DNA from: Geodermatophilus sp. TF02-6 | GTDB lineage: Bacteria; Actinomycetota; Actinomycetes; Mycobacteriales; Geodermatophilaceae | Assembly (NCBI RefSeq): GCF_003319115.1 | Contig: NZ_QOHF01000013.1 | Location: 78,892 to 142,891 of the forward strand | Length of the DNA stretch: 64,000 nucleotides | Direction of reading: 5' to 3' | Shown here: piece by piece, positions 32,003 to 50,910 of the stretch | Layout: the number at the start of each line of letters is the position of its first letter | Numbering within the stretch: the first letter of the stretch is position 1 | The notes under the pieces: model-generated | Told to the model about the DNA's origin: nothing | The model's input: only the letters and a program-made list of their open reading frames with translations | Database searches by the model: none | Translations under genes and position numbers: made by a program

Positions 32003-33274
32003 GTGAGCGCGACGGTCGCCCTCGTGGTCGGCCTGGTCGTCGGCGGCGTCCTGGCTGCCACGGTCCTGCTGCGCCTCCGCCGTCCCGACCGCGACGTCGC
32101 GGCCCCCGCCGCACCCGCACCGGTGCCCGAGGCGGTGCTGGCCCGGCAGCTGATCGACCTGGTGGACCCCGCCGTCGTCCTGCTCGACCCCGACGACGTC
32201 GTCCTCCTGGCCAACCCCGCGGCGCGCGCGCTGGGCATCGTCCGCGACACCCGGCTGCTGGTCCCCGAGCTGCTCGAGCTGGCCCGCACGGTGCGCACCG
32301 GCGGACGGCGGCGCGCGGACGTCGCCCTGCCCGGCGCGCTGGTCGGCGGCGGCCCCCGGCTGGTCGGCGTCCAGGGGGTGCGCCTGGAGAGCGGGCCGGT
32401 GCCCGGCCCGGTGGGGCTGGTGCTGACCGACGTCACGGAGGCCCGCCGGGTGGAGGAGGTCCGCCGCGACTTCGTCGCCAACGTCGGCCACGAGCTGAAG
32501 ACGCCGGTCGGCGCGCTGTCCCTGCTCGCCGAGGCGGTCGAGGACGCCGCCGACGACCCGGAGACCGTGCACCGGTTCGCCGCCCGCATGTCGCACGAGG
32601 CCGACCGGCTCGCCCGGCTGGTCCGCGAGCTGATCGACCTGTCCCGGCTGCAGGGCGGTGAGCCGCTGCCCGAGCTGGTGCCGGTCGAGGTCGACACGGT
32701 CATCGCCGAGGCCGTCGACCGGACCAGGCTGGCCGCGGCCGCCCGGCACACCGCGATCGCCACCGGCGGCCAACGCGGCCTGCTCGTGCGCGGGGTGGAG
32801 GCCCAGCTGACCACCGCGGTGACCAACCTGCTGGCCAACGCCGTCGCCTACAGCCCGGAGGCAGCCCGGATCGCGGTCGGCGCCCGCGCCCGCTCCGGGT
32901 TCGCCGAGATCACCGTGACCGACAGCGGCATCGGCATCCCGCGCCAGGACCGGTCGCGGGTGTTCGAGCGCTTCTACCGGGTCGATCAGTCCCGGGCCAG
33001 CGGCACCGGCGGCACCGGCCTGGGGCTGGCCATCGTCAAGCACGTGGCCACCAACCACGGCGGCTCGGTGAGCGTGTGGAGCGAGGAGGGCCTCGGCTCC
33101 ACGTTCACCCTGCGGATCCCGCTGGCTCCCGGCGCCGCGCCCCCCGCCGAGCCCCCCGCCGAGCCCCCCGCCGAGCCCGAGGTCACCCCGGCTGCACCCG
33201 CCGGGGACGCGCCGGCCAAGCACCACCTCGCCGGCGGTGCGCCCGCCGGGAACGCCCCGGAGGGACGGTCGTGA
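32003..33274 (+). CDS. senX3: phosphate-sensing histidine kinase SenX3
   Basis: 423 residues. One N-terminal membrane span (TVALVVGLVVGGVLAATVLL), a PAS-like domain (about 45-145), then HisKA with NVGHELKTPVGALSLLAEAV (phospho-acceptor His163) and HATPase with NLLANAVAYS, DSGIGIPRQD and GTGGTGLGLAIVKHVA. The C-terminus has a PPAE repeat. GTG 32003 follows GAGGAGGA. The stop overlaps regX3. With PhoU it forms the low-phosphate switch. Confidence 0.95.
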   Translation: MSATVALVVGLVVGGVLAATVLLRLRRPDRDVAAPAAPAPVPEAVLARQLIDLVDPAVVLLDPDDVVLLANPAARALGIVRDTRLLVPELLELARTVRTGGRRRADVALPGALVGGGPRLVGVQGVRLESGPVPGPVGLVLTDVTEARRVEEVRRDFVANVGHELKTPVGALSLLAEAVEDAADDPETVHRFAARMSHEADRLARLVRELIDLSRLQGGEPLPELVPVEVDTVIAEAVDRTRLAAAARHTAIATGGQRGLLVRGVEAQLTTAVTNLLANAVAYSPEAARIAVGARARSGFAEITVTDSGIGIPRQDRSRVFERFYRVDQSRASGTGGTGLGLAIVKHVATNHGGSVSVWSEEGLGSTFTLRIPLAPGAAPPAEPPAEPPAEPEVTPAAPAGDAPAKHHLAGGAPAGNAPEGRS

Positions 33275-33951
33275 ACCGAGTGCTGGTCGTGGAGGACGAG
33301 GAGTCCTTCTCCGACGCGCTGTCCTACATGCTGCGCAGGGAGGGCTTCGACCCCGTCGTCGCGGCCAGCGGCCCGGAGGCGCTGGACGAGTTCGACCGCG
33401 GTGGCGCCGACATCGTCCTGCTCGACCTCATGCTGCCCGGGCTGCCCGGGACCGAGGTGTGCCGCGCCCTGCGCGCCCGCAGCGCGGTGCCGATCATCAT
33501 GCTCACGGCCAAGGACGCCGAGATCGACAAGGTCGTCGGGCTCGAGCTGGGCGCCGACGACTACGTCACCAAGCCGTACTCGGCCCGCGAGCTGGTCGCC
33601 CGGATCCGGGCCGTGCTGCGCCGCCGCGGGCACACCGAGGCGCCGGCCGGGTCGGTGCTGGCGGCCGGCCGGGTCCGCATGGACGTCGACCGGCACGTGG
33701 TCTCCGTCGACGGCGAGCCCGTCGCCCTGCCGCTCAAGGAGTTCGACCTGCTCGAACTGCTGCTGCGCAATGCCGGCCGGGTGCTCACCCGCGGGCAGCT
33801 CATCGACCGGGTGTGGGGCGCGGACTACGTGGGTGACACCAAGACCCTCGACGTCCACGTCAAGCGGCTGCGGGCCAAGATCGAGCCCGACCCGGCCAAC
33901 CCCGAGCACCTGGTGACGGTGCGCGGCCTCGGCTACAAGTTCGAGGCCTGA
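33271..33951 (+). CDS. regX3: response regulator RegX3
   Basis: 226 residues. The receiver has VLVVEDEESF, phospho-acceptor Asp52 in IVLLDLMLPG, and TKPYSARELVARI. The winged helix has LPLKEFDLLELLLRNAGRVL, VWGADYVGDTKTLDVHVKRL and TVRGLGYKFEA. It activates phosphate-starvation genes. GTG start overlaps the senX3 stop. A diverged copy of its last 142 bp lies at 50656-50797 on the far side of the island. Confidence 0.96.
   Translation: MNRVLVVEDEESFSDALSYMLRREGFDPVVAASGPEALDEFDRGGADIVLLDLMLPGLPGTEVCRALRARSAVPIIMLTAKDAEIDKVVGLELGADDYVTKPYSARELVARIRAVLRRRGHTEAPAGSVLAAGRVRMDVDRHVVSVDGEPVALPLKEFDLLELLLRNAGRVLTRGQLIDRVWGADYVGDTKTLDVHVKRLRAKIEPDPANPEHLVTVRGLGYKFEA
33801..33945 (+). repeat. left direct repeat of the island (3' end of regX3)
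   Basis: This segment inside regX3 matches 50656-50797 with 10 substitutions and one 3-nt deletion (about 93% identity). Both copies are in the same orientation and flank the accessory genes at 34016-50530. Confidence 0.88.
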
Positions 33952-37096: not shown

Positions 37097-38269
37097 TCAT
37101 CGGGTGCTCCCCTGGGTCGGCGCGTCCTCGACGCGGGCGATGGCCGGGGCGCCACCCCGGGGGCCGAAGGTCTCGGCGACGGCGGAGACGCCGGCGTTGT
37201 GGGCGCCGGCGACGGTGACGAGGAGGGCCTCGGGCGAGTTGAGCACCGAGACGACGTCGCGCCCCTCCTCCGCGGCGGTGTCCGGCACCGCGTCGGGGTG
37301 GCCGGCCGGCACCCGCCAGCGGGTCTCCCGCGAGACGAGGTCCTTGCCGACCCGGGCCAGCTGCTCGCGGGTGTTCACGGCGTGCTCGTGCACGAACCGC
37401 CGGACGTCGGTGCGCGACCAGCCGGCGCGGGCGAACACGTGCGCGTGCTCGGGCCCCAGGACCAGGCAGCCGCTGATCGTCTCGTGCACCAGCGCACCGG
37501 TGCGGGCCAGCGTGCCGGCGAGGTCGCGGCCGAGCTGCTCGGGGTCGGTGGTGTGCCGCGCCTCGAGGTGGACCACCGAGCGGATCAGCATCGCGGTCAC
37601 CGTGCTCTCACCGGCGGCGAAGCCGTGGTCGGTGGGGAACGGCGCCCAGGGGCTGTCCTCCTCGTTCTCGGCGATGCAGCAGGTGTACTTGGCCGGCGTC
37701 CCCTGGGTGGCCTGGTCCAGCTGGTGCGGGTGCAGGCCGAAGGCGTTGATGGCGGTGAGCCGGATGGCGCGGCCGATGCTGGCGTTGGCCCGGACGCCGG
37801 AGCCGAACACGTTGCCGCGGCCGTTGAGCCCGATCCGCTGCCGCACCGGCCCGTTGACCAACAGCAGCGGCGCGGTTCCCGTCGTGCTCTGCCAGATCCC
37901 CCGGCCGGCGTAGCCCTCCAGGGTCAGCGCGTCCCAGGCGGCCAGCACCACCGGGAAGTACTCGGGCAGGCAGCCGGCCATCGCGGCGTTGACGGCCGCG
38001 GCGCGGACCGTGCAGACCCGGTCGAGGTGCGGCATGCGCAAGACGACGTCCCCCGGCGCCCGCGAGGTCCGGGCGAGGAACTCGGCGAGGTAGGACTCGG
38101 TCACGGGCACGACCGGCAGGCCGTCGGTCCAGCCCTGCTGGGCGTAGTACTCCACGACCCGACGGAGGGCCGCCATGTCCACCATCGGCCGGCCAGCGGC
38201 GTCGGTGGGCACTCCGGGCGTGCCGTCGACCGGCGCCGCGCCGTCCCTCGCGTCGAGCTGACCGCCCAC
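37097..38269 (-). CDS. UGSC-partner family protein (copy 1)
   Basis: 390 residues. Conserved with the protein at 48922-49989 over its whole length: YYAQQGWTDGLPVVPVTES, VNAAMAGCLPEYFPVVLAAW, GIWQSTTGTAPLLLVNGPVR, LDQATQGTPAKYTCCIAENE and CLVLGPEHAHVFARAGWS. No known catalytic motif recognised; conserved Cys and His (MAGCLPEYF, GPEHAH) suggest thiol or metal chemistry. Here there is no UGSC gene next to it, unlike copy 2. GTG 38269 follows AGGAGGAAGC. First gene of the minus operon. Confidence 0.75.
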   Translation of the reverse strand: MGGQLDARDGAAPVDGTPGVPTDAAGRPMVDMAALRRVVEYYAQQGWTDGLPVVPVTESYLAEFLARTSRAPGDVVLRMPHLDRVCTVRAAAVNAAMAGCLPEYFPVVLAAWDALTLEGYAGRGIWQSTTGTAPLLLVNGPVRQRIGLNGRGNVFGSGVRANASIGRAIRLTAINAFGLHPHQLDQATQGTPAKYTCCIAENEEDSPWAPFPTDHGFAAGESTVTAMLIRSVVHLEARHTTDPEQLGRDLAGTLARTGALVHETISGCLVLGPEHAHVFARAGWSRTDVRRFVHEHAVNTREQLARVGKDLVSRETRWRVPAGHPDAVPDTAAEEGRDVVSVLNSPEALLVTVAGAHNAGVSAVAETFGPRGGAPAIARVEDAPTQGSTR

Positions 38270-38342: not shown

Positions 38343-38443
38343 GGACGGTACCCGGCGGTGGGGGCCGGGTCGAGGCCCTCGGGCCGAGGGTCACGATCCG
38401 GTCACGCTCCGCCGAGCGCCCGCCGCCGATCCGGAACCCGGCG

Positions 38444-38472
38444 TTGACACCCCTGTGACCGTCATCATAAGT
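38444..38472 (+). promoter_or_regulatory. sigma-70-type promoter of the ABC/dehydratase operon
   Basis: TTGACA (38444-38449), 17-bp spacer, ATAAGT (38467-38472). It stands out as AT-rich in this GC-rich DNA and would give a leader of about 160 nt before the ATG at 38638. The 38270-38637 gap (368 bp) otherwise holds the operators above and no gene I can support. Confidence 0.5.
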
Positions 38473-38637
38473 TCGCAAAGAGCACGGGTGATCGCATGCC
38501 GCACAAGCCCGGTGCCGCCGGCCAGCTCGCCGGTGCACCGGGCCCACCGCCCGACCGGTGCCGCACCGCCGGAGGTGGCCGGAGCCGGACGCCTCCACCA
38601 CGACCCCGCCGGCCCGTCCGAGTCCGAGGAGGACCCG

Positions 38638-39738
38638 ATGACCTGCACCCCCACCCGTCCGTCCGGTGCAGCACCACGTCGCCGCCCGCGCTGGCGGGCC
38701 GCGCTCGCGGCGGCCAGCGCGGCGACCCTGCTGGCCGCCTGCGGCGGCGGGGACGACGCGGCCGGCAGCAGCAGCAGCGGGGGCAGCGAGGGTGGCGGCG
38801 GCGCGCTGCAGGACGTGACCTTCCTCAACATCCTCCCGCTGGAGAGCCTCACCTTCACCCCGGAGCTGGTGGCCAAGTCCTGCGGCTACTTCGAGGACCA
38901 CGGCCTGAACGTGACCTTCGAGACCACCCAGGGGTCGGCCCCCGCGATCCAGACCGTGCTCGCCGGTGGTGCGCTGATCACCCGCGTCGGCGACATGGAG
39001 ACGATGCTGGCCGCCGGTGAGCGGGACGCGCCGCTGGTCAACGTCGGCCAGATCAACAAGACGGGCACCATCCGCTTCGTCTCGGCGAAGTCCGACCCGC
39101 TGCAGTCGCCGCAGGACATCGAGGGCCGGCTGATGGGCACCCCGTCGGAGGGCGGCACCAGCGAGATCATCCTCAAGCTGGTCGCGGCCACCGCCGGCAT
39201 CGCGCCGGACGACGTCCAGACCCAGGTGGTCGGCGTCGCCCCCGGCGTCTTCGACCTGGTGACCTCCGGCCGGATCGGCGGCTACATCGTCTCGCTCGAC
39301 ACCTCGGTCGCCCTCGCCGCGCAGCAGCCGGACGCGGTGGTCTACAACCCGTCGGACGCCGTCCGGAGCGGCGGGCAGGTGTACGTGACCAGCCAGGACC
39401 AGGCCGACGACCCGGACAAGCAGGAGCAGCTGCGCAACTACCTGGCCGCCGTCAAGGAGGCCGTGCAGTTCGTGGCGCAGGACCAGGCCGGCGGCTACGC
39501 CGAGACCAAGAAGTGCCTGGCCGACTACGACATCCCGACCCTCAAGGACGAGGCGGTCGCGAACGCCGCGCTGGACCAGTACGTCGAGTCGTGGACCGCG
39601 GCCGGCGACGACCAGATCGCCCGCACCGTGCCCGAGCAGTGGCAGGCCGTCTACGACGAGATGTCGGGCTCCGGCTTCGTCCCGAAGGGCCTGGACCCGG
39701 CCGAGTGGTACACGAACGACTACGCGCCGGGGTCCTGA
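38638..39738 (+). CDS. NitT/TauT-type ABC substrate-binding lipoprotein
   Basis: 366 residues. The lipoprotein signal ends LLAAC with Cys35. The mature protein reads DVTFLNILPLESLTFTPELV, KSCGYFEDHGLNVTFETTQG, SAPAIQTVLAGGALITRVGD and VVGVAPGVFDLVTSGRIGGY. This is the SsuA/THI5-like periplasmic-binding family used for sulfonates, nitrate, pyrimidine precursors and aromatic acids. ATG follows GAGGAGGACCCG. First gene of the plus operon. Confidence 0.9.
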   Translation: MTCTPTRPSGAAPRRRPRWRAALAAASAATLLAACGGGDDAAGSSSSGGSEGGGGALQDVTFLNILPLESLTFTPELVAKSCGYFEDHGLNVTFETTQGSAPAIQTVLAGGALITRVGDMETMLAAGERDAPLVNVGQINKTGTIRFVSAKSDPLQSPQDIEGRLMGTPSEGGTSEIILKLVAATAGIAPDDVQTQVVGVAPGVFDLVTSGRIGGYIVSLDTSVALAAQQPDAVVYNPSDAVRSGGQVYVTSQDQADDPDKQEQLRNYLAAVKEAVQFVAQDQAGGYAETKKCLADYDIPTLKDEAVANAALDQYVESWTAAGDDQIARTVPEQWQAVYDEMSGSGFVPKGLDPAEWYTNDYAPGS

Positions 39739-39851
39739 TGACGCGCCCCCCGGCCGGTGCCGGACCCGGATCACCCACCCACGTCGGTGCCACCCCCTCC
39801 GGGGTGCCGGCAGCAGAGAACGGACGTCCCGCGGACCACGGGGAGGACGGC

Positions 39852-40691
39852 ATGACCATCTCGGAACCGGACGTCGCCGTGCGACCGGGCGCCGTGCCCG
39901 CAACGGAGGGCCGCCCGGCCCAGCTGGAGGTCACGGGCGTCGACAAGGTCTACCAGGCCCGCCGCGGCGAGGTGCACGCGCTCTCCAACGTGGACCTCTC
40001 CATCGGCAGGGGCGAGTTCATCTCCCTGGTCGGGCGGTCCGGGTGCGGGAAGACCACGCTGCTGCGCATCCTCGCCGGCCTGCTCGCGCCCAGCTCCGGC
40101 ACGGTCACCGCCGACGGGGAGAGCACCTGGCGCGGCGGCAAGCGCAACGACGAGGCGTTCGCGCAGTTCGGCCTGGTCTTCCAGGACGCCAACCTGTTCC
40201 CCTGGTACACGATCGCCGACAACATCGCGCTGCCCCTGAAGCTGCGCGGGGTCGCCAGGCGGGCCCGCCGGGCGCGCGCCGCGGAGCTGTGCGAGCTGGT
40301 CGGCCTGCCCGGGTTCGAGAACGCCTACCCGCGGGAGCTGTCCGGCGGCATGCGGCAGCGCGCGGCGATCGCCCGGGCGCTGAGCTACGACCCGAAGATC
40401 CTGCTCATGGACGAGCCGTTCGGGGCCCTGGACGCGCTGACCCGCGACCGGATGAACCTGGAACTGCAGACGATCCACGCGCAGGCCGGCGCGACCGTCG
40501 TCTTCGTGACCCACTCGATCAACGAGGCGGTCTTCCTGGCCGACCGGGTCGTGCTGCTCACCCCGCGGCCGGGGCGGATCCGCTCGATCACCCCGGTGCC
40601 CGTCGCCCGCCCGCGCTCGCTGGAGACCGAGACCACCACCGAGTTCCAGACCGTCGTCCGCCGGCTCCGCCACGAACTGGACGAGGAGTGA
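39852..40691 (+). CDS. NitT/TauT-type ABC transporter ATPase
   Basis: 279 residues. Walker A VGRSGCGKTTLLRIL, Q-loop GLVFQDANLFPWYTIADNI, signature LSGGMRQRAAIARALSYDPK, Walker B ILLMDEPFGALDALTRDRM and the H-loop VFVTHSINEAV. ATG 39852 was chosen because GGGAGG lies 5 nt upstream; an ATG at 39738 overlapping the binding-protein stop would add 38 low-complexity residues. Confidence 0.92.
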   Translation: MTISEPDVAVRPGAVPATEGRPAQLEVTGVDKVYQARRGEVHALSNVDLSIGRGEFISLVGRSGCGKTTLLRILAGLLAPSSGTVTADGESTWRGGKRNDEAFAQFGLVFQDANLFPWYTIADNIALPLKLRGVARRARRARAAELCELVGLPGFENAYPRELSGGMRQRAAIARALSYDPKILLMDEPFGALDALTRDRMNLELQTIHAQAGATVVFVTHSINEAVFLADRVVLLTPRPGRIRSITPVPVARPRSLETETTTEFQTVVRRLRHELDEE

Positions 40692-40698
40692 CCCGCCC

Positions 40699-41565
40699 AT
40701 GACCACGCTCGACCGCCGCACCGGGACCACCCCGCCGGCCGGGGGCAGCACGCCGGCCCGCCGGGAGAAGGCCCCCGGCGAGCGGGACGGCCTGATGAGG
40801 GCCCTGCCGCTGATCTCCACGCCGGTCCTGCTCCTGCTGCTCATCGGCGGCTGGCAGTTCACCGTCTCGGTCATCGGCGTCTCGCAGTTCATCCTGCCCG
40901 CGCCGCTGGACGTCTGGCGCTCCCTGGTCGACCTGCTCACCGGCGGGACCATCTGGCGCGACGTCTGGATCACCCTCTACGAGGTCCTGCTCGGCTTCGT
41001 CATCGCCGTCGTGGTCGGCACGGTGGCCGGCGCCGTCCTCGGCCGGGTGGTCTGGCTGGAGCGGGCCCTGCAACCGGCGCTCGTGGCCCTGCAGGTGATC
41101 CCGAAGGTCGCCTTCATCCCGATCTTCGTCATCTGGTTCGGCTTCGGGACGACGTCCAAGGTCATCATGGCCGCGATCCTGGCCTTCTTCCCGATCATGC
41201 TGAACGTGATGCTGGGCGTCCGGTCGGTGGACCGCGGGCACCGCGACGTGATGCGCGGCCTGGGCGCCAGCCGCTGGGCTACGTTCCGCGACCTGGAGCT
41301 GCCCAGCACGCTGCCCTACATCTTCGCCGGCGCCGAGGTGGGCATCGTCTTCGCCGTCATCGGCGCGATCGTCGGCGAGTACCTGGGCGGCAGCGAGGGC
41401 CTGGGGCACCTGGTGGTCCGCAGCCTCAACGCCCTCGACGCGCCGCAGCTGTTCGCGGTCATCGTGCTGCTGGCGATCATGGGGTCCCTGCTCTACGCGG
41501 CGGTGACCCTGACCAAGCGGCTGCTCATCCCGTGGCACGACTCGGTCTCCGGGGTCAGCCCGTGA
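40699..41565 (+). CDS. NitT/TauT-type ABC transporter permease
   Basis: 288 residues. About six spans, with the EAA loop DVMRGLGASRWATFRDLELP following RSVDRGHR. Other landmarks are FIPIFVIWFGFGTTSKVIMA and AIVGEYLGGSEGLGHLVVRS. Seven nt after the ATPase stop; its own stop overlaps the second IlvD gene. Confidence 0.92.
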   Translation: MTTLDRRTGTTPPAGGSTPARREKAPGERDGLMRALPLISTPVLLLLLIGGWQFTVSVIGVSQFILPAPLDVWRSLVDLLTGGTIWRDVWITLYEVLLGFVIAVVVGTVAGAVLGRVVWLERALQPALVALQVIPKVAFIPIFVIWFGFGTTSKVIMAAILAFFPIMLNVMLGVRSVDRGHRDVMRGLGASRWATFRDLELPSTLPYIFAGAEVGIVFAVIGAIVGEYLGGSEGLGHLVVRSLNALDAPQLFAVIVLLAIMGSLLYAAVTLTKRLLIPWHDSVSGVSP

Positions 41566-43280
41566 CCGACGGCGGGCCGCGGCTGCGCAGCAACCTGCAG
41601 GAGGGCAGCTCCCGCTGGGCCGTCCGCCGGGCGCAGTGGCGGGCGCTGGGCATCTCCGACGAGGACATGCGCAAGCCCAAGGTCGCGATCGTCAACTCGT
41701 CGTCGGACCTGGCGATCTGCTTCAGCCACCTGGACGGGATCGTCGCGCCGCTCAAGGAGGCGATCCGGGCCGCCGGCGGCCTGCCGTTCGAGGTCCGGAC
41801 GGCGGCCCCGAGCGACTTCATCACCTCCGCCGGCCGGGACGGGCGCTACATCCTGCCCAGCCGCGACCTGATCGTGAACGACGTCGAGGTCGCCGTGGAG
41901 GGCGCCCAGCTCGACGGGATGGTCACCCTCGCCTCGTGCGACAAGACCGCGCCGGCGCACCTCATGGCCGCCGGCCGGCTGGACATCCCGACGATCGTCG
42001 TCGGCTGCGGCTACCAGCCCAGCGGCGACCACCGCGGGGAGCACGTCGACATCGAGGAGGTCTTCCTGGCCGCCGGCTCCGTGGCCGCCGGCCGGATGAG
42101 CCTCGAGCAGCTGTGCGGCATGAGCGACAACGCCATCCGCGGGCCCGGTGTCTGCGCCGGCCTCGGCACCGCGAACACCATGCACACGGCCTGCGAGGCC
42201 CTGGGCATGTCGCTGTCGGGCACCACCCCGGTGCTGGCCAACGGCCCGGCCATGTGGGACGCCGTCCGCCGTGCCGGCGCCCGCATCGTCGACCTGGTCA
42301 CCGAGGGCCGGCGCCCGCGCGAGGTCATGACCGCCGGCGCCTTCCGCAACGCGGTCACGGTGATGCTGGCGATCAGCGCCTCGGTGAACTCGATCAAGCA
42401 CCTGCAGGCCGTGGCGCACGAGGCGGCGGTCGACGTCGACGTCCCCGGCCTGTTCGCCGAGCTCGCCGACCGGGTGCCGCTGCTGTGCGCGGTCCGTCCG
42501 AACGGCCCGCACTCCATCGAGGACCTGGAGCGGGCCGGCGGCACCCGCGCCGTCCTCGTCCAGCTGCGCGACCTGCTCGACCTCGACGTCCCCACCGTGG
42601 ACGGCGGCACGCTCGGCGAGGTGCTGGCGGGCGCCACCGTGGCCGACGAGGAGGTGGTCCGCCCCGCGGACCGCCCGTTCGGGACCCGGCCGACGATCGT
42701 GGTCGTCCGCGGGTCGCTGGCCCCCGGCGGCGCTGTGGTGAAACGGCCGGTGGACGACCGCGGCGCGCGCCGCTTCGAGGGCACGGCGCTGTGCTACTCG
42801 ACCCGCGACGAGGCGCTGGCCGGACTGCAGCGCGGCGAGGTCGGCCCCGGCACGGTGCTGGTCGTCCGCGGCCTCGGCGTCGTCGGCGGGCCCGGCATGG
42901 CGCTGGGCTCGGCGGTGGTCTTCGCGCTGGAGGGCGCCGGCCTGGGCGACAGCGTCGCGGTGGTCACCGACGGGCAGATGTCCGGGTTGGTCAACGTGGG
43001 CACCGTCGTCGGCGAGGTGACGCCGGAGGCGGCGCTGGGCGGGCCGCTGGCCCTGGTGGAGGACGGCGACCGGATCGTCATCGACGTCGACCGGCGCACC
43101 GTCGACCTCGAGGTGCCCGACGACGTCCTGGCCGCCCGCCGCGAGCGGCTGGGCAGCACCGACCTGGGCCCGGACCACGGCTGGCTGTCGGCCTACCGCC
43201 GGCTGGTCTCCCCCGTCCCCGAGGGCGCGGTGCTCACCGCCCCCGCCCCGGGCCGTGCGCCTGCCGAGGAGACGACGTGA
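41562..43280 (+). CDS. IlvD/Edd-family dehydratase (copy 2)
   Basis: 572 residues. Fe-S ligand Cys in DLAICFSHLDGIV, LASCDKTAPAHLMAAGRLD and GPGVCAGLGTANTMH, and the C-terminal VTDGQMSGLVNVGTVVGEVT. Colinear with copy 1 throughout but clearly diverged (for example CDKTAPAH versus CDKTTPGQ at the cluster loop), suggesting related but different substrates. GTG overlaps the permease stop; the stop overlaps the FAD gene. Confidence 0.9.
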   Translation: MTDGGPRLRSNLQEGSSRWAVRRAQWRALGISDEDMRKPKVAIVNSSSDLAICFSHLDGIVAPLKEAIRAAGGLPFEVRTAAPSDFITSAGRDGRYILPSRDLIVNDVEVAVEGAQLDGMVTLASCDKTAPAHLMAAGRLDIPTIVVGCGYQPSGDHRGEHVDIEEVFLAAGSVAAGRMSLEQLCGMSDNAIRGPGVCAGLGTANTMHTACEALGMSLSGTTPVLANGPAMWDAVRRAGARIVDLVTEGRRPREVMTAGAFRNAVTVMLAISASVNSIKHLQAVAHEAAVDVDVPGLFAELADRVPLLCAVRPNGPHSIEDLERAGGTRAVLVQLRDLLDLDVPTVDGGTLGEVLAGATVADEEVVRPADRPFGTRPTIVVVRGSLAPGGAVVKRPVDDRGARRFEGTALCYSTRDEALAGLQRGEVGPGTVLVVRGLGVVGGPGMALGSAVVFALEGAGLGDSVAVVTDGQMSGLVNVGTVVGEVTPEAALGGPLALVEDGDRIVIDVDRRTVDLEVPDDVLAARRERLGSTDLGPDHGWLSAYRRLVSPVPEGAVLTAPAPGRAPAEETT

Positions 43281-44623
43281 CCTGGATCGAGGAGCCGGGA
43301 CGGCGCACCGCCGTCCTCGGCGAGTACGAGGTCGTCGTGGTCGGCGGCGGCCCGGCCGGGGTCATGGCCGCGGCCGCCGCCGCCCGCGCCGGCCGCTCGA
43401 CGATCCTGGTCGAGCGCAACGGCTACACCGGCGGCGCGGGCAGCGCCGGCGGGCTGTCCACGTTCTGCGGGCTGCACGCCAACGTGCACGGCGAGCACCG
43501 CCAGGTGATCCACGGCCTGGCCGACGAGCTGCTGGCGCGGATGGCCGCGCTCGACGGGCTGAACGAGCCGCACCTGAGCTTCGCCGACCGGATCCTCGCC
43601 CAGGCCTACGACATCAGCGCCTACAAGATCGCCCTCGACGACCTGCTGGTCGGGTCCGGCGTGACGCTGCTGTTCCACGCCCTCGCCGTCGGCGTGGTCA
43701 TGGCCGACGAGTCCACCGTCGACGCGCTGCTGGTGGAGTCCAAGTCGGGCCGCGGCGCGATCCGCGGCCGGGTGTTCGTCGACGGCTCCGGCGACGGCGA
43801 CCTCGCCGCGTGGGCCGGGGCGCCGTACGAGAAGACCGACCCGGGGCACGGGATGCTCTACCCGTCACTGATGTTCCGCATCAACGGCGTGGACGCCGGG
43901 GCCGCCGCGGCGACCCACGACCGGCTGTCCGGCCTCATGGAGGACGCCGAGCGCGCCGGCCGGTTCACCTTCCCGCGCAAGCGCCCGATCGTGCGGCCCC
44001 AGCGCAACCCGCTGGAGTGGCGGGCCAACATCACCCAGCTGCGCAACCCCGACGGCAGCGCGATCGACGGCACCGACGTGTGGCAGCTGACCCGCGGCGA
44101 GCTGCAGGGCCGCCGGCAGGTCCGCGACGTCTTCCCGTTCTACCGGCAGGAGGTGCCCGGCTTCGCGGCCGCCTACGTCGTCGACATCGCGCCGGACATC
44201 GGCATCCGGGAGACCCGCCGGATCGTCGGCGCCCACCAGCTCACCCAGGACGACATCCTCGACTGCGCCGACTTCCCCGACGCGATCGGCGTCAACGGCT
44301 GGCCGGTCGAGGCCCACGTCGCCGGCGACGTCGAGATCCGCTGGCAGCGCCGGCCGCGCGGCTACAACCAGCTGCCGTTTCGCATGATCGTCCCGCAAGT
44401 GCTGTCCAACACCTACGTGGTGGGCCGGTGCGCCTCGATGACCCACGAGGGCCAGTCCAGCGCCCGGGTCAGCGGGCCCTGCTTCGCGATGGGCCAGGCC
44501 GCCGGCACCGCCGCCGACCTCGCCCTCTCCGCCGGGGTGGCGGTCGGGGACGTCGACGTCGCCAAGCTGCAGGCCCGCCTCGAGGAGGACGGCGCCTGGC
44601 TCGGCGGGGAGGGCGGGCGATGA
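43277..44623 (+). CDS. FAD-dependent oxidoreductase (copy 2)
   Basis: 448 residues, GxGxxG in VVVVGGGPAGVMAAAAAARA, then LVERNGYTGGAGSAGGLSTF, GRVFVDGSGDGDLAAWAGAP and NTYVVGRCASMTHEGQSSAR. Very similar to copy 1, including PIVRPQRNPLEWRANITQL. Overlaps both neighbours by 4 nt, so it is tightly coupled to the dehydratase and aconitase X. Confidence 0.9.
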   Translation: MTWIEEPGRRTAVLGEYEVVVVGGGPAGVMAAAAAARAGRSTILVERNGYTGGAGSAGGLSTFCGLHANVHGEHRQVIHGLADELLARMAALDGLNEPHLSFADRILAQAYDISAYKIALDDLLVGSGVTLLFHALAVGVVMADESTVDALLVESKSGRGAIRGRVFVDGSGDGDLAAWAGAPYEKTDPGHGMLYPSLMFRINGVDAGAAAATHDRLSGLMEDAERAGRFTFPRKRPIVRPQRNPLEWRANITQLRNPDGSAIDGTDVWQLTRGELQGRRQVRDVFPFYRQEVPGFAAAYVVDIAPDIGIRETRRIVGAHQLTQDDILDCADFPDAIGVNGWPVEAHVAGDVEIRWQRRPRGYNQLPFRMIVPQVLSNTYVVGRCASMTHEGQSSARVSGPCFAMGQAAGTAADLALSAGVAVGDVDVAKLQARLEEDGAWLGGEGGR

Positions 44624-45903
44624 GGCTGACCGACGACGAGCGGGTGATGCTCGACGGCGAGCAGGGCGAGGCGGTCGCCGCCGCGATGGACCTGCTGGTC
44701 CGCTACGGCGAGGTGCTCGGCGCCGAGCGGCTGGTCGACACCGACAACGTGTGCGGAGCCAACCTCTTCGGATCCCGGCACAGCCTGGTCTGCGGCTCCC
44801 CCACCCCGGACGCCGCCTTCTCCGAGCACAGCCTCGACGCGCCCACCGTGCTGACCATCCCCCCGGTGCGCGCGCAGAGCTACCAGCTCATCGGGCCGAT
44901 GGACACCAAGCACTGGCAGGTGCAGGGGCTGCCGCAGGCCGAGCACGACGAGATCATCGCCAGCGAGCGGTACAACGCCGAGCACGGCATCCACCTGCTC
45001 ACCACCTGCACCCCGTACCAGGTGGGCAACGTCCCGCTCAAGGGCGAGCACTGCGCCTGGATGGAGAGCTCGGCGGTCGTCTACGTCAACTCCGTGCTCG
45101 GCGCGCGCACCAACGTGGAGGGCCGGGAGAGCACGGGCGCGGCCATGCTCACCGGCAAGATCCCCTACTGGGGCCTGCACCTGGAGGAGAACCGGCACGG
45201 CTCGCACCTGGTCGAGGTGACCACGCCGGTCGAGAGCAACCGGGACTGGGGGCTGCTCGGCTACTGGATCGGCGAGCAGGTGCCGGAGGAGGCCATCCCG
45301 GTGGTCGACGGGATCACCGCCACCACGCCCGACCTGGTCCGGCTCAAGCACTTCGGCGCCGCGGCCGCGTCCTCGGGGGGCGTGGAGCTCTACCACGTCC
45401 CGGGCGTCACGGCGGAGGCGCGCACCGTCGAGGAGGCGCTCGCCGGGCGGACGCCGGTCGAGCGGCTGACCTACGGTCCGGCGCAGCGCCGGGAGGCGTA
45501 CGAGCACCTGAACGCCACGGCCACGGACACCTCGGTCGACCTGGTGATGATCGGCTGCCCGCACGCGACGCTCGGGCAGATCCGCGACGTCGTCCGGCTG
45601 CTCGAGGGCCGCCGGGTGCACCCGGACACCGAGCTGTGGGTCTTCACCCCCCGCGCGTTGCGGCACGTCGCCGAGCGCAACGGGTACGACCGGGCGCTCG
45701 CCGACGCCGGCGCGCTGCTGATGAGCGACACCTGTCCGGCGATCGGCCGGTTCCTGCCGAAGGGGACCCGGGTCATCGCCACCGACTCGGCCAAGCAGGT
45801 GCACTACCTGCCGGCGATCATGGACGTGCAGGGCCGGTTCGGCACCCTCGCCGAGTGCGTGGACGCCGCGGTGACCGGCACCTGGCGGGGGGAGGTCCCG
45901 TGA
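44620..45903 (+). CDS. aconitase X catalytic (large) subunit
   Basis: 427 residues of the AcnX/DUF521 family. Cys ligands of the family's Fe-S cluster are seen in TDNVCGANLFGSRHSLVCGS, VMIGCPHATLGQIRDVVRL and LLMSDTCPAIGRFLPKGTRV. MLTGKIPYWGLHLEENRHGS is the family's substrate region. Known members dehydrate cis-3-hydroxy-L-proline or mevalonate-5-phosphate. ATG overlaps the FAD gene; the stop overlaps the small subunit. Confidence 0.92.
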   Translation: MRLTDDERVMLDGEQGEAVAAAMDLLVRYGEVLGAERLVDTDNVCGANLFGSRHSLVCGSPTPDAAFSEHSLDAPTVLTIPPVRAQSYQLIGPMDTKHWQVQGLPQAEHDEIIASERYNAEHGIHLLTTCTPYQVGNVPLKGEHCAWMESSAVVYVNSVLGARTNVEGRESTGAAMLTGKIPYWGLHLEENRHGSHLVEVTTPVESNRDWGLLGYWIGEQVPEEAIPVVDGITATTPDLVRLKHFGAAAASSGGVELYHVPGVTAEARTVEEALAGRTPVERLTYGPAQRREAYEHLNATATDTSVDLVMIGCPHATLGQIRDVVRLLEGRRVHPDTELWVFTPRALRHVAERNGYDRALADAGALLMSDTCPAIGRFLPKGTRVIATDSAKQVHYLPAIMDVQGRFGTLAECVDAAVTGTWRGEVP

Positions 45904-46319
45904 GCCAGGTCGTGCTCACCGGTCGCGGACTGGTCGGCGGCGTCGCCGAGGGGGAGGCGCTGGTCACCCGCGAGGCGATCTCCGGCTGGGGCGGGGTCGA
46001 GCCCCGCGAGGGCCGGGTGATCGAGTCGCGGCACGAGCTGGTCGGGCAGTCCTTCGCCGGCAAGGTGCTGGTCTTCCGCGGCGCCAAGGGCTCCTCGGGC
46101 TGGTCGGGGGTGTTCCACCTGACCCGGCTGATGGGTTCGGCGCCCGCGGCGATGGTGTTCACCACGATGAACACCAAGATCGCGCTCGGGGTCGTGGTGA
46201 CCCACGTGCCGGCGGTGACCGACCTCGACGGCGACCCGTTCGAGCTCATCCGCACCGGTGACCGGGTGCGGGTGGACGCCGACCGCGGGCAGGTCATCGT
46301 CACCCCGGCGGGCGGGTAG
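45900..46319 (+). CDS. aconitase X swivel (small) subunit, DUF126
   Basis: 139 residues, swivelling beta/alpha domain: GRGLVGGVAEGEALVTREAI, GKVLVFRGAKGSSGWSGVFH (the SSGWSG active-site loop) and VVTHVPAVTDLDGDPFELIR. Separate small subunit of the type IIa AcnX arrangement. GTG start; ends with TAG. Confidence 0.92.
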   Translation: MSQVVLTGRGLVGGVAEGEALVTREAISGWGGVEPREGRVIESRHELVGQSFAGKVLVFRGAKGSSGWSGVFHLTRLMGSAPAAMVFTTMNTKIALGVVVTHVPAVTDLDGDPFELIRTGDRVRVDADRGQVIVTPAGG

Positions 46320-46436: not shown

Positions 46437-47270
46437 GTGCCCGACGACGAGGGCGCCGGGGACGTCGGCGCCGTCCGCCAGCGCGGCGACTACTTCGTGC
46501 AGTCCCTGGAGCGCGGGCTGGCCGTGATCAAGGCCTTCACCGCCGAGGAGCCGGAGCTGACCCTCAGCGACATCGCCCGCCGCACCGGGATGACCCGCGC
46601 GGCGGCCCGCCGCTTCGTGCTGACGCTGGTCGACCTGGGGTACGTCGGCACCACCGACCGGCGGTTCCACCTGCGCCCGACCGTCCTGGAGCTCGGCTAC
46701 ACGTACCTGTCGCTGCTGTCCTTCCCGCAGGTGGCCACCCCGCACCTGACCGCGCTGTCCGAGCGGCTCAACGAGACGACCAGCGTCGCCGTCCTCGACG
46801 GGGACGACATCGTCTACGTCGCGCGGGTGGGCCCGCGCCGCGTCATCTCCAGCGGGCTGACCGTCGGCACCAGGCTGCCGGCCTTCGTCACCTCCCACGG
46901 CCGCGTCCAGCTCGCCGCGCTGCCCGACGACCGGCTGGACGCCTACCTGACCCGCGCCCGCCTCGAGCCGCGCACCGCGCGGACGACGACCGACCCGGTC
47001 AAGCTGCGCGACCGGCTGCTGGAGGTGCGCGCCCAGGGCTTCGCGCTGGTCGACCAGGAGCTGGAGGAGGGCGTGACCTCGATCGCCGTCCCGGTCCGCG
47101 ACGCCTCGGGCACCGTGGTCGCCTCGGTCAACGTCGGCTCCCAGGCCCGGCGGCTGACCCCCGCGGCGCTGCGGCGCGCCGCGCTGGAGCCGCTGCGGGA
47201 GACCGCCCACCAGATCGAACGGGACATCGCCCTGCTCGGCGTCCGGACCACCCCGCCCGGTCAGTTCTGA
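46437..47270 (+). CDS. IclR-family transcriptional regulator
   Basis: 277 residues. The winged HTH has FVQSLERGLAVIKAFTAEEP, LTLSDIARRTGMTRAAARRF and LVDLGYVGTTDRRFHLRPTV. The effector domain has SVAVLDGDDIVYVARVGPRR and GFALVDQELEEGVTSIAVPV. It resembles the PcaR/PcaU/PobR group. Likely senses the island's substrate or intermediate. GTG start. Its 3' end overlaps the convergent ligase gene by 10 nt. Confidence 0.9.
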   Translation: MPDDEGAGDVGAVRQRGDYFVQSLERGLAVIKAFTAEEPELTLSDIARRTGMTRAAARRFVLTLVDLGYVGTTDRRFHLRPTVLELGYTYLSLLSFPQVATPHLTALSERLNETTSVAVLDGDDIVYVARVGPRRVISSGLTVGTRLPAFVTSHGRVQLAALPDDRLDAYLTRARLEPRTARTTTDPVKLRDRLLEVRAQGFALVDQELEEGVTSIAVPVRDASGTVVASVNVGSQARRLTPAALRRAALEPLRETAHQIERDIALLGVRTTPPGQF

Positions 47271-48925
47271 GCCGGCTCCGGGCCCGTGGTCAGCCGCCGG
47301 GCCTGCTCGGCGGCCCAGCGCCGGTCGATCTTGCCGGACACCGTCCGCTCGATCCCCGGCACGATCCGGACCCGGCGCGGGCGCTTGTAGCCGGCCAGGC
47401 GTTGCCCCACGGCCGCCGCCAGCGGCTCCTCCCGCAGCCGCGCGCCGGGCTCGGGCACCACCAGCGCGGTCACCAGGCTCCCCCACCGGTCGTCGGGGAC
47501 GCCGACCACCACGGCCTCGGCCACCCCGGGGCAGTCGACCAGCGCCTGCTCGACCTCCTCGGCGAACACCTTCTCGCCGCCGGTGTTGACCACCCCGGAC
47601 CCGCGGCCGAGCAGGGTCAGCGTGCCGTCGGCCTCGACGGTGGCGGCGTCACCGGGCACCGCGTACCGGACTCCGTCGATGGTGCGGAAGACCGCCGCGG
47701 TGGCCACCGGGTCGTCGAGGTAGCCCAGCGGCAGGTTGCCGGTGCTGGCCAGGACGCCGACCTGGCCCGAGCCGGGGACGACGTCGGCGCCGTCGGGCGC
47801 GACCACCCGCGCGTTGGGCGGCAGGGCGAAGCGCGAGTCGACCGAGTCGGAGTCCGGCCCGCACAGCGAGACGCCGAACGGCCCGCCCTCGGTGGCGGCG
47901 ATGGAGTCCTGCAGCGTGAACCGGCCGGCCCGCAGCAGCCGGCGCTTGGTCTCGGGGCTCCAGCGGACCCCGGAGCTGACGATCCGGCGCAGCGAGCGCA
48001 GGTCGTAGGGGGTGCCGGCGGCCGCGGCCCGGTCGAGCTCGCCCAGCAGCGGGACGGCGAAGGCGTCGCCGACGATCACCAGCTCGTCGACGCGGTGCCG
48101 CTGCACCGCCGTCCACAGCGCCGCCGGGTCCAGCGACCGCTGCGGCAGGGTGACCACGCGGCCGCCGCGCAGCAGGTTGCCGACGCTGGAGAAGAAGCCG
48201 GTGCCGTGCACGAGCGGGGACGCCGGCAGCACCACCGGCGCGCTGCCCTCCCGTGCCGCCACGACCGCGTCGGCCACCACCCCGGCGGGGTCGGCCGGAA
48301 CGGGCCGCCCCGCCCGCCCGTAGGCCGAGGAGACGACGCCGCAGACGCCGGCGCAGTCCCACTCCACGCCCTTGGGCAGGCCCGTCGTCCCCCCGGTGAG
48401 CATGAGCACCCGGTCGTCGGGCGAGCGCGGCTGCCGGGGGTGCGGCGCTGCGGCCACCGCCTCCTCGTAGGCCACGAGCCGGCCTTCGTGGCCACTCCGG
48501 CCGCCCTCGTCGCCCACCACGACGACCGCGCGCAGGCCCGGGCGGGCGGCGGCGACCGCGGCCGCGGTGCCGGCCACGGTCGCGTCGGCCACCAGCGCGC
48601 GCAGGTCGGTGAGGTCCACGACCTGGGCGAGCTCGGCCTCCCGGTAGCGGTAGTTGACGTTGACCGGCACCGCCCGCAGCTTCAGCGCCGCGAACAGGGT
48701 CTCCAGGTACTCCGGCGAGTTGTGCAGCGCGATGCCCACCCGGTCGCCGGGGCCGACGCCGCGGGCGGCGAGGGTGCCGGCCAGCCGCGCCGCGCGGTCG
48801 TCGAACTGCGCCCAGGTCACCGCGCGCTCGCCGTGCACCAGCGCGGTGCGGTCGGGGTCGAGGGCGCTCAGCGCGTCGGCGACCGCTTCCAGCAGGGTGG
48901 CCAGGTTGTCCCGGAAGCCGGTCAC
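47261..48925 (-). CDS. acyl-CoA synthetase (ANL superfamily)
   Basis: 554 residues. AMP-binding loop MLTGGTTGLPKGVEWD, ATEGG in DSIAATEGGPFGVSLC, GYLDDPVATAAVFRTIDGV, RGSGVVNTGGEKVFAEEVEQ and the catalytic Lys in ERTVSGKIDRRWAAE. It activates a carboxylic acid to its CoA ester; specificity unknown. Third gene of the UGSC operon; its GTG overlaps the partner protein's stop (GTGA), so coupled translation is likely. Confidence 0.92.
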   Translation of the reverse strand: MTGFRDNLATLLEAVADALSALDPDRTALVHGERAVTWAQFDDRAARLAGTLAARGVGPGDRVGIALHNSPEYLETLFAALKLRAVPVNVNYRYREAELAQVVDLTDLRALVADATVAGTAAAVAAARPGLRAVVVVGDEGGRSGHEGRLVAYEEAVAAAPHPRQPRSPDDRVLMLTGGTTGLPKGVEWDCAGVCGVVSSAYGRAGRPVPADPAGVVADAVVAAREGSAPVVLPASPLVHGTGFFSSVGNLLRGGRVVTLPQRSLDPAALWTAVQRHRVDELVIVGDAFAVPLLGELDRAAAAGTPYDLRSLRRIVSSGVRWSPETKRRLLRAGRFTLQDSIAATEGGPFGVSLCGPDSDSVDSRFALPPNARVVAPDGADVVPGSGQVGVLASTGNLPLGYLDDPVATAAVFRTIDGVRYAVPGDAATVEADGTLTLLGRGSGVVNTGGEKVFAEEVEQALVDCPGVAEAVVVGVPDDRWGSLVTALVVPEPGARLREEPLAAAVGQRLAGYKRPRRVRIVPGIERTVSGKIDRRWAAEQARRLTTGPEPAQN

Positions 48926-49989
48926 GGCGCTGCGACCCCCGCGATCCGGGTGACCGGCGGCCGGTCGCCGCGCGGGCCGAAGGTCTCGACGACCGCGGAG
49001 ACGCCGGAGTTCGACGCCCCGGCGACCACGACGAGGACGGCGTCGGGCGAGGTCATCGTCCGGATGCCGTCGCGCGCCGGGTCGGGGCCGGGGTCGACGA
49101 CCGCGTCGGGGTGGTCGCGGGCCACCCGCCAGTGGCTCTTCTGCGACACCGCACCCTTGCCGGCGCGGTCGAGCTCCTCGCGGGGGACGAAGGACTGCTC
49201 GTGGAGCGCCACCGCCACGTCCCGCTTGCTCCAGCCGGCGTCGGCCAGCAGGTGGGCGTGCTCCGGGCAGAGGACGACGCAGGCGCTGACCGTCCGGTGC
49301 AGCAGCGCCCCGGTCCGCCGCAGCGTGCCGGCGACGTCCGCGACGAGCTGCTCGGCGACGTTGGTGTGCCGGGCCTCGATGTGCACGGTCGAGCGCATGG
49401 TCAGCGCGGTGACCGCGCTGACCTCAGGGGCGAGACCGCAGTCGACGTGCAGCGGCGTCCACGGCGACTCCTCCTCGTTCTCGCCGATGCACGCCGTGTA
49501 CTTGGCCGGCGTGCCCTGGGTGGCCTGGTCGAGCTCGTGCGGCTCGAGCCCCAGCGCGTTGATGGCGGTCAGCCGGACGGCGCGGCCGATCGTGGCGTTG
49601 GCCCGGAAGCCGGGACCGAACAGGTTGCCGGCGCTGTTGACACCCAGCTCGCGGCGCACCGGGCCGTTGACCAGTAGGAGGGACGCCGTCCCCGTGGTGC
49701 TCTGCCAGATGCCCTTGCGGGGGTAGCCCTCCTGGTCCAGCGAGTCCCAGGCCGCGACGACCACCGGGAAGTACTCCGGGAGGCAGCCGGCCATCACCGC
49801 GTTGATCGCCGCGAGCCGCACGGTCACCGCGCGGTTGATCTGCGGCATCGCGAGGAGCACCTCGCCGGGGTCGCGGTCGACCCGGGCCAGGACGGCGGCG
49901 AGCGCCTCCTCGTCGCAGGGGACGACCGGAAGTCCGTCGGTCCACCCCTGCGCGTAGCAGTGCTCGATCGCCCGCTGGGTGTCGTTCAC
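48922..49989 (-). CDS. UGSC-partner family protein (copy 2)
   Basis: 355 residues, colinear with the protein at 37097-38269: CYAQGWTDGLPVVPCDEEAL, INAVMAGCLPEYFPVVVAAW, GIWQSTTGTASLLLVNGPVR, LDQATQGTPAKYTACIGENE and CVVLCPEHAHLLADAGWSK. It has extra Cys at GLPVVPCDE and VVLCPEH compared with copy 1. GTG 49989 follows GAGGAG and lies 4 nt after the UGSC stop. The tight linkage suggests that the two proteins form a functional pair. Confidence 0.78.
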   Translation of the reverse strand: MNDTQRAIEHCYAQGWTDGLPVVPCDEEALAAVLARVDRDPGEVLLAMPQINRAVTVRLAAINAVMAGCLPEYFPVVVAAWDSLDQEGYPRKGIWQSTTGTASLLLVNGPVRRELGVNSAGNLFGPGFRANATIGRAVRLTAINALGLEPHELDQATQGTPAKYTACIGENEEESPWTPLHVDCGLAPEVSAVTALTMRSTVHIEARHTNVAEQLVADVAGTLRRTGALLHRTVSACVVLCPEHAHLLADAGWSKRDVAVALHEQSFVPREELDRAGKGAVSQKSHWRVARDHPDAVVDPGPDPARDGIRTMTSPDAVLVVVAGASNSGVSAVVETFGPRGDRPPVTRIAGVAAP

Positions 49990-49993
49990 CCGT

Positions 49994-50530
49994 TCACTCC
50001 TCGACCCCGAGGAGGTCCAGCACGCGGGGCAGCATCTCCTCCACCCGCTGCCGGATGCCCTCGGCGTCCAGGCTGGCCACCGGGTGCGGGATGGAGACCC
50101 ACTGGAAGCCCGGGAACCCGTAGGTCCGGGCCATCGCCTCGCCGGTGATCCCGAAGGCGTCGGTGCAGATCGAGACGGCCGGCACACCCTGCCGTTCCAG
50201 GAGGATCCCGTCGGCCACACTGGCCGCGCTGCAGGAGCCCTAGTCACCGATCGCGGTGATCGCGAAGTCGCACTCCTCGAAGATCCGCTGGGTCTGGGTG
50301 GGCTCGACCGGGGTGCCGAAGTAGGGCTTGCTGTACATCAGCACGCCCTCGAGCCCGTACCGCTCCCGCAGGACGGTGCCCAGCCCGGTGAGCAGGGCGG
50401 CGCCGTTGGGCTTGGTGTTGTCCAGCAGGCCGAGCGTCTTGCCCCGCAGGCTGGTCACCCGGGGGGCCAGCGACGTGTCCGCCGAGGCGTCGGTGCCGCC
50501 TGTCGGGTCCAGGATCGACTCCAGCTGCAT
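49994..50530 (-). CDS. UGSC-family selenoprotein with in-frame TAG as the predicted Sec codon
   Basis: 178 residues if TAG at 50242-50240 is read as selenocysteine (position 97). The N-terminal part ends CDFAITAIGD; after TAG the same frame continues GSCSAASVADGILLERQG, VPAVSICTDAFGITGEAMA and TYGFPGFQWVSIPHPVASL to a TGA. The motif is therefore U97-G-S-C100, the signature of the UGSC selenoprotein family. A strand, U-x-x-C, then a helix and GVPAV resembles selenoprotein B of glycine/proline reductases (inference). ATG follows GAGGAGCCGCC. A naive annotation would give two fragments (stop at 50240; GTG restart at 50218). A nonsense mutation is the alternative. Confidence 0.85.
50203..50239 (-). 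promoter_or_regulatory. SECIS-like hairpin directly after the TAG
   Basis: Reading 5' to 3' on the minus strand from the base after TAG: lower stem GGCTCCT paired with GGGATCC (6 of 7), internal loop GCAGCG / AC, upper stem CGGCC paired with GGCCG, apical loop AGTGT. The apical loop starts 18 nt after TAG and has G as its second base, matching the published bacterial SECIS model (16-37 nt, G in the first two loop positions). Confidence 0.7.
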
Positions 50531-50579
50531 GGCGGCTCCTCGAACGACACCTCGGCAAGTGGGCGGTATCCGAACACCA

Positions 50580-50635: not shown

Positions 50636-50797
50636 GTGCAGGACGCCGGCCCGGTCATCGGCCGGGTGTGGGACGCGCACCACGTGGGTGACACCGAGAC
50701 CCTCGACGTCCACGTCGAGCGGCTGCGGGCCATCGAGCCCGACCCGGCCGACCCCGAGCACCGGGTGACGGTGCGCGGCCTCGGCCACGAGTTCGAG
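50636..50797 (+). pseudogene. regX3 3'-end fragment (right direct repeat of the island)
   Basis: Encodes GRVWDAHHVGDTETLDVHVE, RLRAIEPDPADPEH and RVTVRGLGHEFEQ in one open frame, matching the RegX3 winged helix. DNA identity to 33801-33945 is about 93% over 142 bp, with one codon (Lys) deleted. No receiver domain or upstream gene part. It ends abruptly at a family A repeat. Every remaining Lys codon has become Glu, so it is decaying or was imported already diverged. Confidence 0.88.
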
Positions 50798-50910
50798 CAG
50801 AAGGACCCCGTCCTCCCCACCCTTCGCAGGCTCAGGGTGGGACCCGGGACGGGGCCGCCGTCCTTCCCACCCTTCGCAGGCTCAGGGTGGGACCCGGGAC
50901 GGGGCGGGGT
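50798..50910. repeat. family A repeats, 50-bp tandem duplication
   Basis: AGAAGGACCCCGTCCTCCCC starts the element at the fragment end. CCTTCGCAGGCTCAGGGTGG plus its arm GACCCGGGACGGGGC occurs at 50821 and again at 50871, a 50-bp period. Related pieces (GGGACCCGGGACGGGCCGCC) continue to about 50970. The 50531-51028 gap thus holds the UGSC promoter, the regX3 fragment and these repeats. Confidence 0.8.

Follow-up and report, generated by a model that had tools for sequence, protein, structure and literature searches.

Background

Reading of UAG as selenocysteine (Sec) has already been described in the Geodermatophilaceae: a tRNA-Sec with the anticodon CUA, accompanied by in-frame TAG codons in formate dehydrogenase and UGSC genes, is reported in the relevant passage of PMC5330540, which credits the UAG-reading tRNA-Sec to an earlier report, Mukai et al. 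2016. Natural recoding extends to other stop codons and to sense codons, as outlined in PMC10778597. An ocean survey counts UGSC proteins among its most frequent selenoproteins and, in the section concerned, gives no specific function for them (PMC2398784).

The window analysed here, a stretch of 64,000 nucleotides from Geodermatophilus sp. TF02-6, contains a UGSC gene of this kind. Since UAG-encoded Sec in the Geodermatophilaceae, UGSC included, is in print, the recoding itself is not new. The system resembles that of Mukai et al. 2016, known here through citing papers, in its tRNA-Sec(CUA), in the presence of TAG in formate dehydrogenase and UGSC, and in the bacterial family; it differs in concerning another genome and a UGSC lineage within a catabolic-looking operon, and in being set in a survey of 112 genomes with hairpin covariation and one genome that has two kinds of tRNA-Sec. 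In the literature searched, where Mukai et al. 2016 is represented by citing papers only, there was no specific UGSC function, no description of the partner protein considered below, and no genome with two Sec codons. As far as the searches show, the new elements are the constant position of UGSC beside one uncharacterised partner of about 350 residues, the fusions of the two, those of the partner with thioredoxin in other genomes, and the likeness of the Sec segment to selenoprotein B.

A UGSC gene interrupted by TAG

The gene (Table 1) runs on the minus strand from an ATG at 50530 through 96 codons to TAG (50242-50240), and through 81 further codons to a TGA at 49996-49994; the TAG is the sole interruption of the frame. 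A sequence-only reading of this DNA had described the frame as broken only by TAG, with the flanks D-[TAG]-G-S-C-S-A-A-S and 81 codons onwards to TGA, and the sequence confirms this description. Its identification of the product as a UGSC protein is borne out by curated profiles: the 178-residue readthrough product matches PF24696 (UGSC) over the full length of the profile with 212.9 bits (cut-off 25), and NF041046 with 158 bits (cut-off 125). The product also shares with this family the U/C-G-S-C motif, which is invariant across 41 aligned sequences, and the alternation of Sec and Cys; it differs in that its Sec codon is UAG rather than UGA, and in having an uncharacterised partner and a CoA ligase alongside. 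Judging from substitutions between the window gene and three orthologues (six pairs), the part of the gene downstream of TAG is under purifying selection, with dN/dS values of 0.21-0.32 after the TAG and 0.09-0.27 before it; gene decay, which the sequence-only reading had named as an outcome that would speak against recoding, is absent.

Table 1. Positions of the genes and sequence elements discussed in the text; all are in the window except the last row, which belongs to a sister genome
Feature	Position	Strand	Remarks
Predicted UGSC-family selenoprotein gene	49994..50530	-	178 codons including one in-frame TAG
TAG codon, predicted selenocysteine 97	50240..50242	-	from sequence and codon column of relatives
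AGGAG, probable ribosome-binding site	50536..50540	-	5 nt before ATG; from sequence
SECIS-like hairpin core	50212..50226	-	6-bp stem 50226-50221 with 50217-50212, loop GTG 50220-50218
Partner gene	48922..49989	-	GTG start, 355 aa; very large uncharacterised family
Acyl-CoA synthetase (PRK07798 subfamily), third gene of likely operon	47261..48925	-	4-nt overlap with partner stop
IclR-type regulator, PcaR/PcaU/PobR subfamily	46437..47270	+	
Aconitase X swivel subunit	45900..46319	+	ordinary TAG stop
Aconitase X (PF04412) large subunit	44620..45903	+	below NCBIfam cut-off for cis-3-hydroxyproline dehydratase
FAD-dependent oxidoreductase (PF12831)	43277..44623	+	
IlvD/EDD-family dehydratase	41532..43280	+	
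NMT1/THI5-like binding protein and permease (Pfam)	38416..41565	+	ORF between them resembles ABC ATPase (by eye)
Second partner copy	37097..38185	-	60% identical; no adjacent UGSC gene
tRNA-Sec(UCA) cassette, contig C17 (L035) of G005	1169-1263 and 1579-2157	- and +	AhpD-like gene with in-frame TGA beside tRNA

A search of 61 genomes (that of the window and 60 relatives) found UGSC at E <= 1e-10 in 26 of them, in 48 copies, one of which is partial. The codon at the Sec column is TAG in 38 copies, TGC in nine and TGA in one, and no second in-frame stop occurs in the matched stretch of any copy; Sec or Cys at this column, as the sequence-only reading had expected of homologues, is therefore found in 48 of 48. 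The genome of the window has three copies, with TAG in the window and on contig C1, and TGC on contig C34. The single copy with TGA belongs to a genome (G038) whose tRNA-Sec has the anticodon TCA (L002). Orthologues that are 83-85% identical exist in three relatives, and yet none of the best 120 UGSC database matches listed exceeds 61% identity, from which it appears that TAG-containing UGSC genes are easily lost from databases.

A pattern scan for TAG-containing UGSC genes with the hairpin loop, over 84,980 species genomes, returned 51 stretches, all of them from the Geodermatophilaceae (Geodermatophilus, Blastococcus or Modestobacter). The pattern itself fixes D-TAG-GSC in frame, and it requires a TCN serine codon and an AGTNT loop, so that variants would be missed. 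In all 51 stretches the UGSC frame is open on both sides of the TAG, and this, together with the presence of the partner, confirms them beyond what the pattern fixes.

Two features of the DNA upstream of the UGSC gene may be recorded: an ORF immediately before it, at 50636-50768 (+), resembles, by eye, a truncated tail of an OmpR-type response regulator (compare 33076-33951), and a palindromic unit, CCACCCTGAGCCTGCGAAGGGTGGG, is present in two copies within 50810-50900.

The partner gene and the likely operon

The start of the partner gene lies four bases past the stop of UGSC; this gap and the 4-nt overlap of the partner with the acyl-CoA synthetase gene make a three-gene operon likely. The partner adjoins UGSC in all 35 copies with enough DNA to tell, namely that of the window and 34 others, the flanking DNA of the remaining 13 of the 48 copies being too short to judge. 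Of the 51 loci of the pattern scan, 49 likewise have it on the same strand, no more than 2 kb away, and both misses (L122 and L155) are cut at the end of the locus. The partner has no match in Pfam or NCBIfam, searches for its fold gave no convincing match, and 7834 of 8000 scored candidates are homologous to it at E <= 0.001. Two cysteines, C69 and C167, are invariant in 30 aligned sequences.

In Geodermatophilus sp. DF01-2 (L133) and in DSM 45219 (L136), UGSC, its TAG and the partner constitute one frame with no other stop. Nine of the 120 listed database entries (P0241-P0249) start about 8 to 36 residues past the place of Sec and continue into the partner, and look like UGSC-partner fusion selenoproteins that gene callers have shortened. 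A fusion of UGSC with an unknown domain was mentioned in the 2008 ocean survey, in the part that deals with UGSC (PMC2398784); that domain may or may not correspond to the present partner.

The partners of 17 loci, of the SCTSCS group, have an N-terminal extension with the motif K-x-x-C-x-T-C. A profile of 16 such extensions matches solved thioredoxins (best E 6.4e-6). With a limit of E <= 1, all but one of these 16 (15) also match Thioredoxin_2 of Pfam; the best E is 7.4e-6, and the member listed has a score of 20.2 where the cut-off is 27. The domain appears only when searched apart, the whole thioredoxin-bearing partner of one locus having no Pfam match at 0.01. The partner in the window is itself without a thioredoxin domain.

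The operon faces a plus-strand cluster (Table 1), and UGSC, partner and CoA ligase are kept together with the facing IclR regulator, aconitase X, FAD oxidoreductase, IlvD, permease and ATPase in Geodermatophilus sabuli DSM 46844, G. sabuli I12A-02694 and G. ruber DSM 45317 (L102, L103 and L104). Given the CoA ligase, the dehydratases and the transporter nearby, the substrate may be an organic acid. Nine proteins encoded at three other UGSC loci have no common theme, and the catabolic link may therefore be local. With a constant partner, fusions and an operon to go on, a function of UGSC can be put to the test. Beyond the second partner copy, the ORFs from 37038 to 34016 resemble duplicates of the FAD oxidoreductase gene and the IlvD gene, and the arrangement nearly mirrors the plus-strand cluster.

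Structure and possible function of UGSC

In a structure model of UGSC (pLDDT 88.9), strands and helices alternate in a flavodoxin-like arrangement, with Sec97 placed between strand 3 (89-95) and the start of a helix (98-113). No thioredoxin is among the structural matches listed for this model (50 rows and a further listing), and a search of solved structures with the UGSC sequence gave no real match (one hit, E 0.99).

Glycine reductase uses thioredoxin as its reductant. Comparison of UGSC with the family of its selenoprotein B (GRDB, PF07355), which takes in selenoprotein B of glycine, betaine and sarcosine reductases and PrdB of D-proline reductase, gave mixed results. Both have E(+15), G(+18) and P(+20) at equal distances downstream of Sec; these columns are invariant in UGSC, as are the first two in GRDB, where the proline is nearly so. 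Ungapped scores anchored at Sec are 18.5-31.5 for ten distinct GRDB rows; the null distribution has a mean of -28.5, a standard deviation of 11.8 and a maximum of 20.2, with five of 4000 windows (drawn from 9124) reaching 18.5. One hhalign comparison gave E 1.2e-4 with a probability of only 55.6%, and two further runs with other alignments found nothing. None of 41 UGSC members matches PF07355 at E <= 10, a search in which the HMMER filters drop most matches above 0.1. UGSC also differs from GRDB in size (178 residues against about 430) and in its partner protein, and homology between the two is no more than suggestive. Full-length PF07355 genes do occur in other genomes of the phylum (L229-L241); in all 13 loci read, an in-frame TGA precedes GTGTR[CS]G. 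As this evidence is weak and mixed, UGSC is said here to be likely to work like selenoprotein B and is not called one.

By this mechanism, Sec97 would attack a substrate that the partner holds, much as selenoprotein B acts in glycine and proline reductases, and the oxidised Sec/Cys100 pair would be re-reduced by thioredoxin, the likely reductant here as in glycine reductase. That UGSC and its partner act as such a thioredoxin-fed reductase is proposed tentatively. More speculative still is the full proposal that they form an undescribed selenoreductase, a distant aerobic counterpart of glycine and D-proline reductases that would use Sec to cleave a bond of an organic acid held by the partner and would be built entirely through UAG recoding in the Geodermatophilaceae, in some species as a single fusion interrupted by UAG; at least one species would read both UAG and UGA as selenocysteine with a single SelB.

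A general thiol or selenol oxidoreductase that reduces peroxides or disulfides, made by genuine recoding, is the strongest competitor and is on balance unlikely. The UxxC motif, the thioredoxin fused to the partner in relatives, and the 2008 ocean survey, which in its UGSC section calls the protein likely thioredoxin-like and redox-active (PMC2398784), favour such a role. Against it, the model is flavodoxin-like rather than thioredoxin-like, the E, G and P residues after Sec are common to UGSC and GRDB, and the operon with its CoA ligase, beside dehydratases and a transporter, is kept in four genomes; a constant partner of 350 residues is also more than one would expect a simple peroxidase to require. 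A role for UGSC as a redox or repair helper, with the partner itself as catalyst, is less likely again. UGSC might for example reduce C69 or C167 of the partner, in keeping with the invariance of both, and the partner occurs without UGSC elsewhere in the window; however, UGSC is itself strongly conserved around Sec, and is never found without the partner where flanking DNA could show it.

Predicted decoding of UAG as selenocysteine

The in-frame UAG of the UGSC gene is almost certainly decoded as selenocysteine, to judge from the codon column and from the genes for the decoding apparatus. The window lies on contig C4 of its genome (G000), which contains one strong tRNA-Sec match (C18:30256-30351; 65.3 bits to RF01852), for which ARAGORN gives the anticodon CTA, and another that reaches 48.7 bits against a cut-off of 47. 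Adjoining this tRNA-Sec(CUA) within 6.3 kb (L034) are selD, selA and selB, each above its NCBIfam cut-off. The sequence-only reading, which had named a UAG-reading tRNA-Sec as reported for Geodermatophilus and Blastococcus and had proposed to look for these three genes and a tRNA-Sec(CUA), was right on both counts: all are present in the same genome, and the use of such a tRNA is confirmed in print, in the passage of PMC5330540 that treats it. UAG also serves as an ordinary stop in the window, at the end of one of 19 genes read, that of the aconitase X swivel subunit.

Among 112 genomes of the family, tRNA-Sec was found at E <= 1e-9 in 108, and the CUA arm pattern in 101, comprising 92 of the 96 good-quality genomes and nine of twelve genera. 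The 11 genomes in which the arm was missed are nine from three genera (g5, g8 and g10) and two incomplete ones from another (g6); a tRNA was found in seven of the nine, and its anticodon is TCA. This distribution fits a single switch of anticodon inside the family. Formate dehydrogenase follows the tRNA: seven genes of five CUA genomes have TAG in the motif QARI-[TAG]-HS, and the UCA genome G038 has TGA where these have TAG. No formate dehydrogenase above the cut-off was found in the UCA genomes G029, G032 and G034 (nine genomes searched).

Insertion of pyrrolysine, serine or glutamine by a suppressor tRNA is very improbable: ARAGORN does label the tRNA 'Pyl', owing to its CTA anticodon, but the tRNA has tRNA-Sec architecture and sits among selD, selA and selB, relatives have Cys or TGA at the column, and formate dehydrogenase has TAG where G038 has TGA.

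Just after the TAG of UGSC, the sequence CGGCCA-GTG-TGGCCG could form a hairpin, with 19 nt from TAG to loop. Bacterial SECIS elements, as defined in the pertinent part of PMC13188914, have a loop of 3-9 nt with a G in the first two positions, a distance of 16-37 nt from codon to loop and a minimum free energy of at most -7.5; the hairpin of the window, with its loop GTG, its 19 nt and a folding energy of -16.7 kcal/mol over 42 nt, falls within all of these bounds. It is no more stable than shuffled sequence (folding energy z -0.35), and for one Sec row, G010, the energy favours a different fold. Every one of the 19 distinct Sec rows keeps all six stem pairs (114 of 114 cells), and three pairs are changed on both sides. 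Covariation in the stem is 0.489, compared with a mean of 0.138 after shuffling (none of 500 shuffles reaches 0.489) and at most 0.07 when the stem is slid; the double changes split the rows into 13 and 6 and therefore may be one event. Of the six pairs, the nine Cys copies have mostly lost two (kept in one and four copies), and the other four are kept in eight or nine. The hairpin is topped by a serine codon, which reads AGT in all 39 Sec copies; none of the nine Cys copies has AGT there, and this codon is rare, making up two of the 361 serine codons counted in 19 window genes. The support for this putative hairpin is its covariation and its codon choice.

That the TAG is a nonsense mutation or a sequencing error, in a decaying gene whose 96-residue piece is a non-functional remnant, can practically be dismissed: standard gene callers would truncate the gene here and Cys paralogues exist, one of them in the same genome, but the TAG occupies the identical column in 38 of 48 copies and occurs nowhere else in them, the region after it is under purifying selection, the hairpin is intact in Sec copies only, two frames run through the TAG into the partner, and recurrence of the TAG in three named genera in effect refutes decay.

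The natural UAG-to-Sec recoding claimed by the sequence-only reading is thus supported by the tRNA-Sec(CUA), the codon column and the absence of decay. SelA would make Sec on the CUA tRNA, and SelB would bind the hairpin and deliver Sec at the UAG of UGSC while other UAG codons still terminate. Taken as a whole, it is very probable that the UGSC UAG is read by tRNA-Sec(CUA), with SelB likely guided by the hairpin; that the product and the partner protein act together as a thioredoxin-fed reductase is the more tentative part of the explanation. The system offers a clear example from nature of one stop codon with two meanings, termination and selenocysteine, in which codon, anticodon and hairpin go together across the family.

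A sister genome with two predicted selenocysteine codons

The genome of Geodermatophilus sp. LHW52908 (G005) encodes tRNA-Sec(CUA) with SelB on contig C11 and a second tRNA-Sec, with the anticodon TCA, on contig C17, and has one SelB above the cut-off. None of the other genomes among the 112 of the family has two different kinds of tRNA-Sec (E <= 1e-9); one of them (G095) has two, both of the CUA kind. The gene adjoining the tRNA-Sec(UCA) encodes an AhpD-like protein (PF02627, 28.2 bits, cut-off 23) with an in-frame TGA in CFY-[TGA]-MESH, followed by a hairpin with the loop GTT. Among the 73 genomes with an AhpD-like homologue (112 searched), only the G005 copy has the internal stop, and the TGA column is Cys in 29 of 29 homologues read. 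The UGSC and formate dehydrogenase genes of G005 use TAG. It is predicted from these sequences that UAG and UGA both mean Sec in G005 with one SelB, which offers a chance to ask how one SelB serves two codons. A misassembly could still account for the two-code cassette. Contig C17 is native further in, with 77% identity over 2.4 kb to another genome (G008), and the cassette lies near the contig end, with ORFs that resemble transposases (by eye) and a stretch of lower GC content, so that recent transfer is likely.
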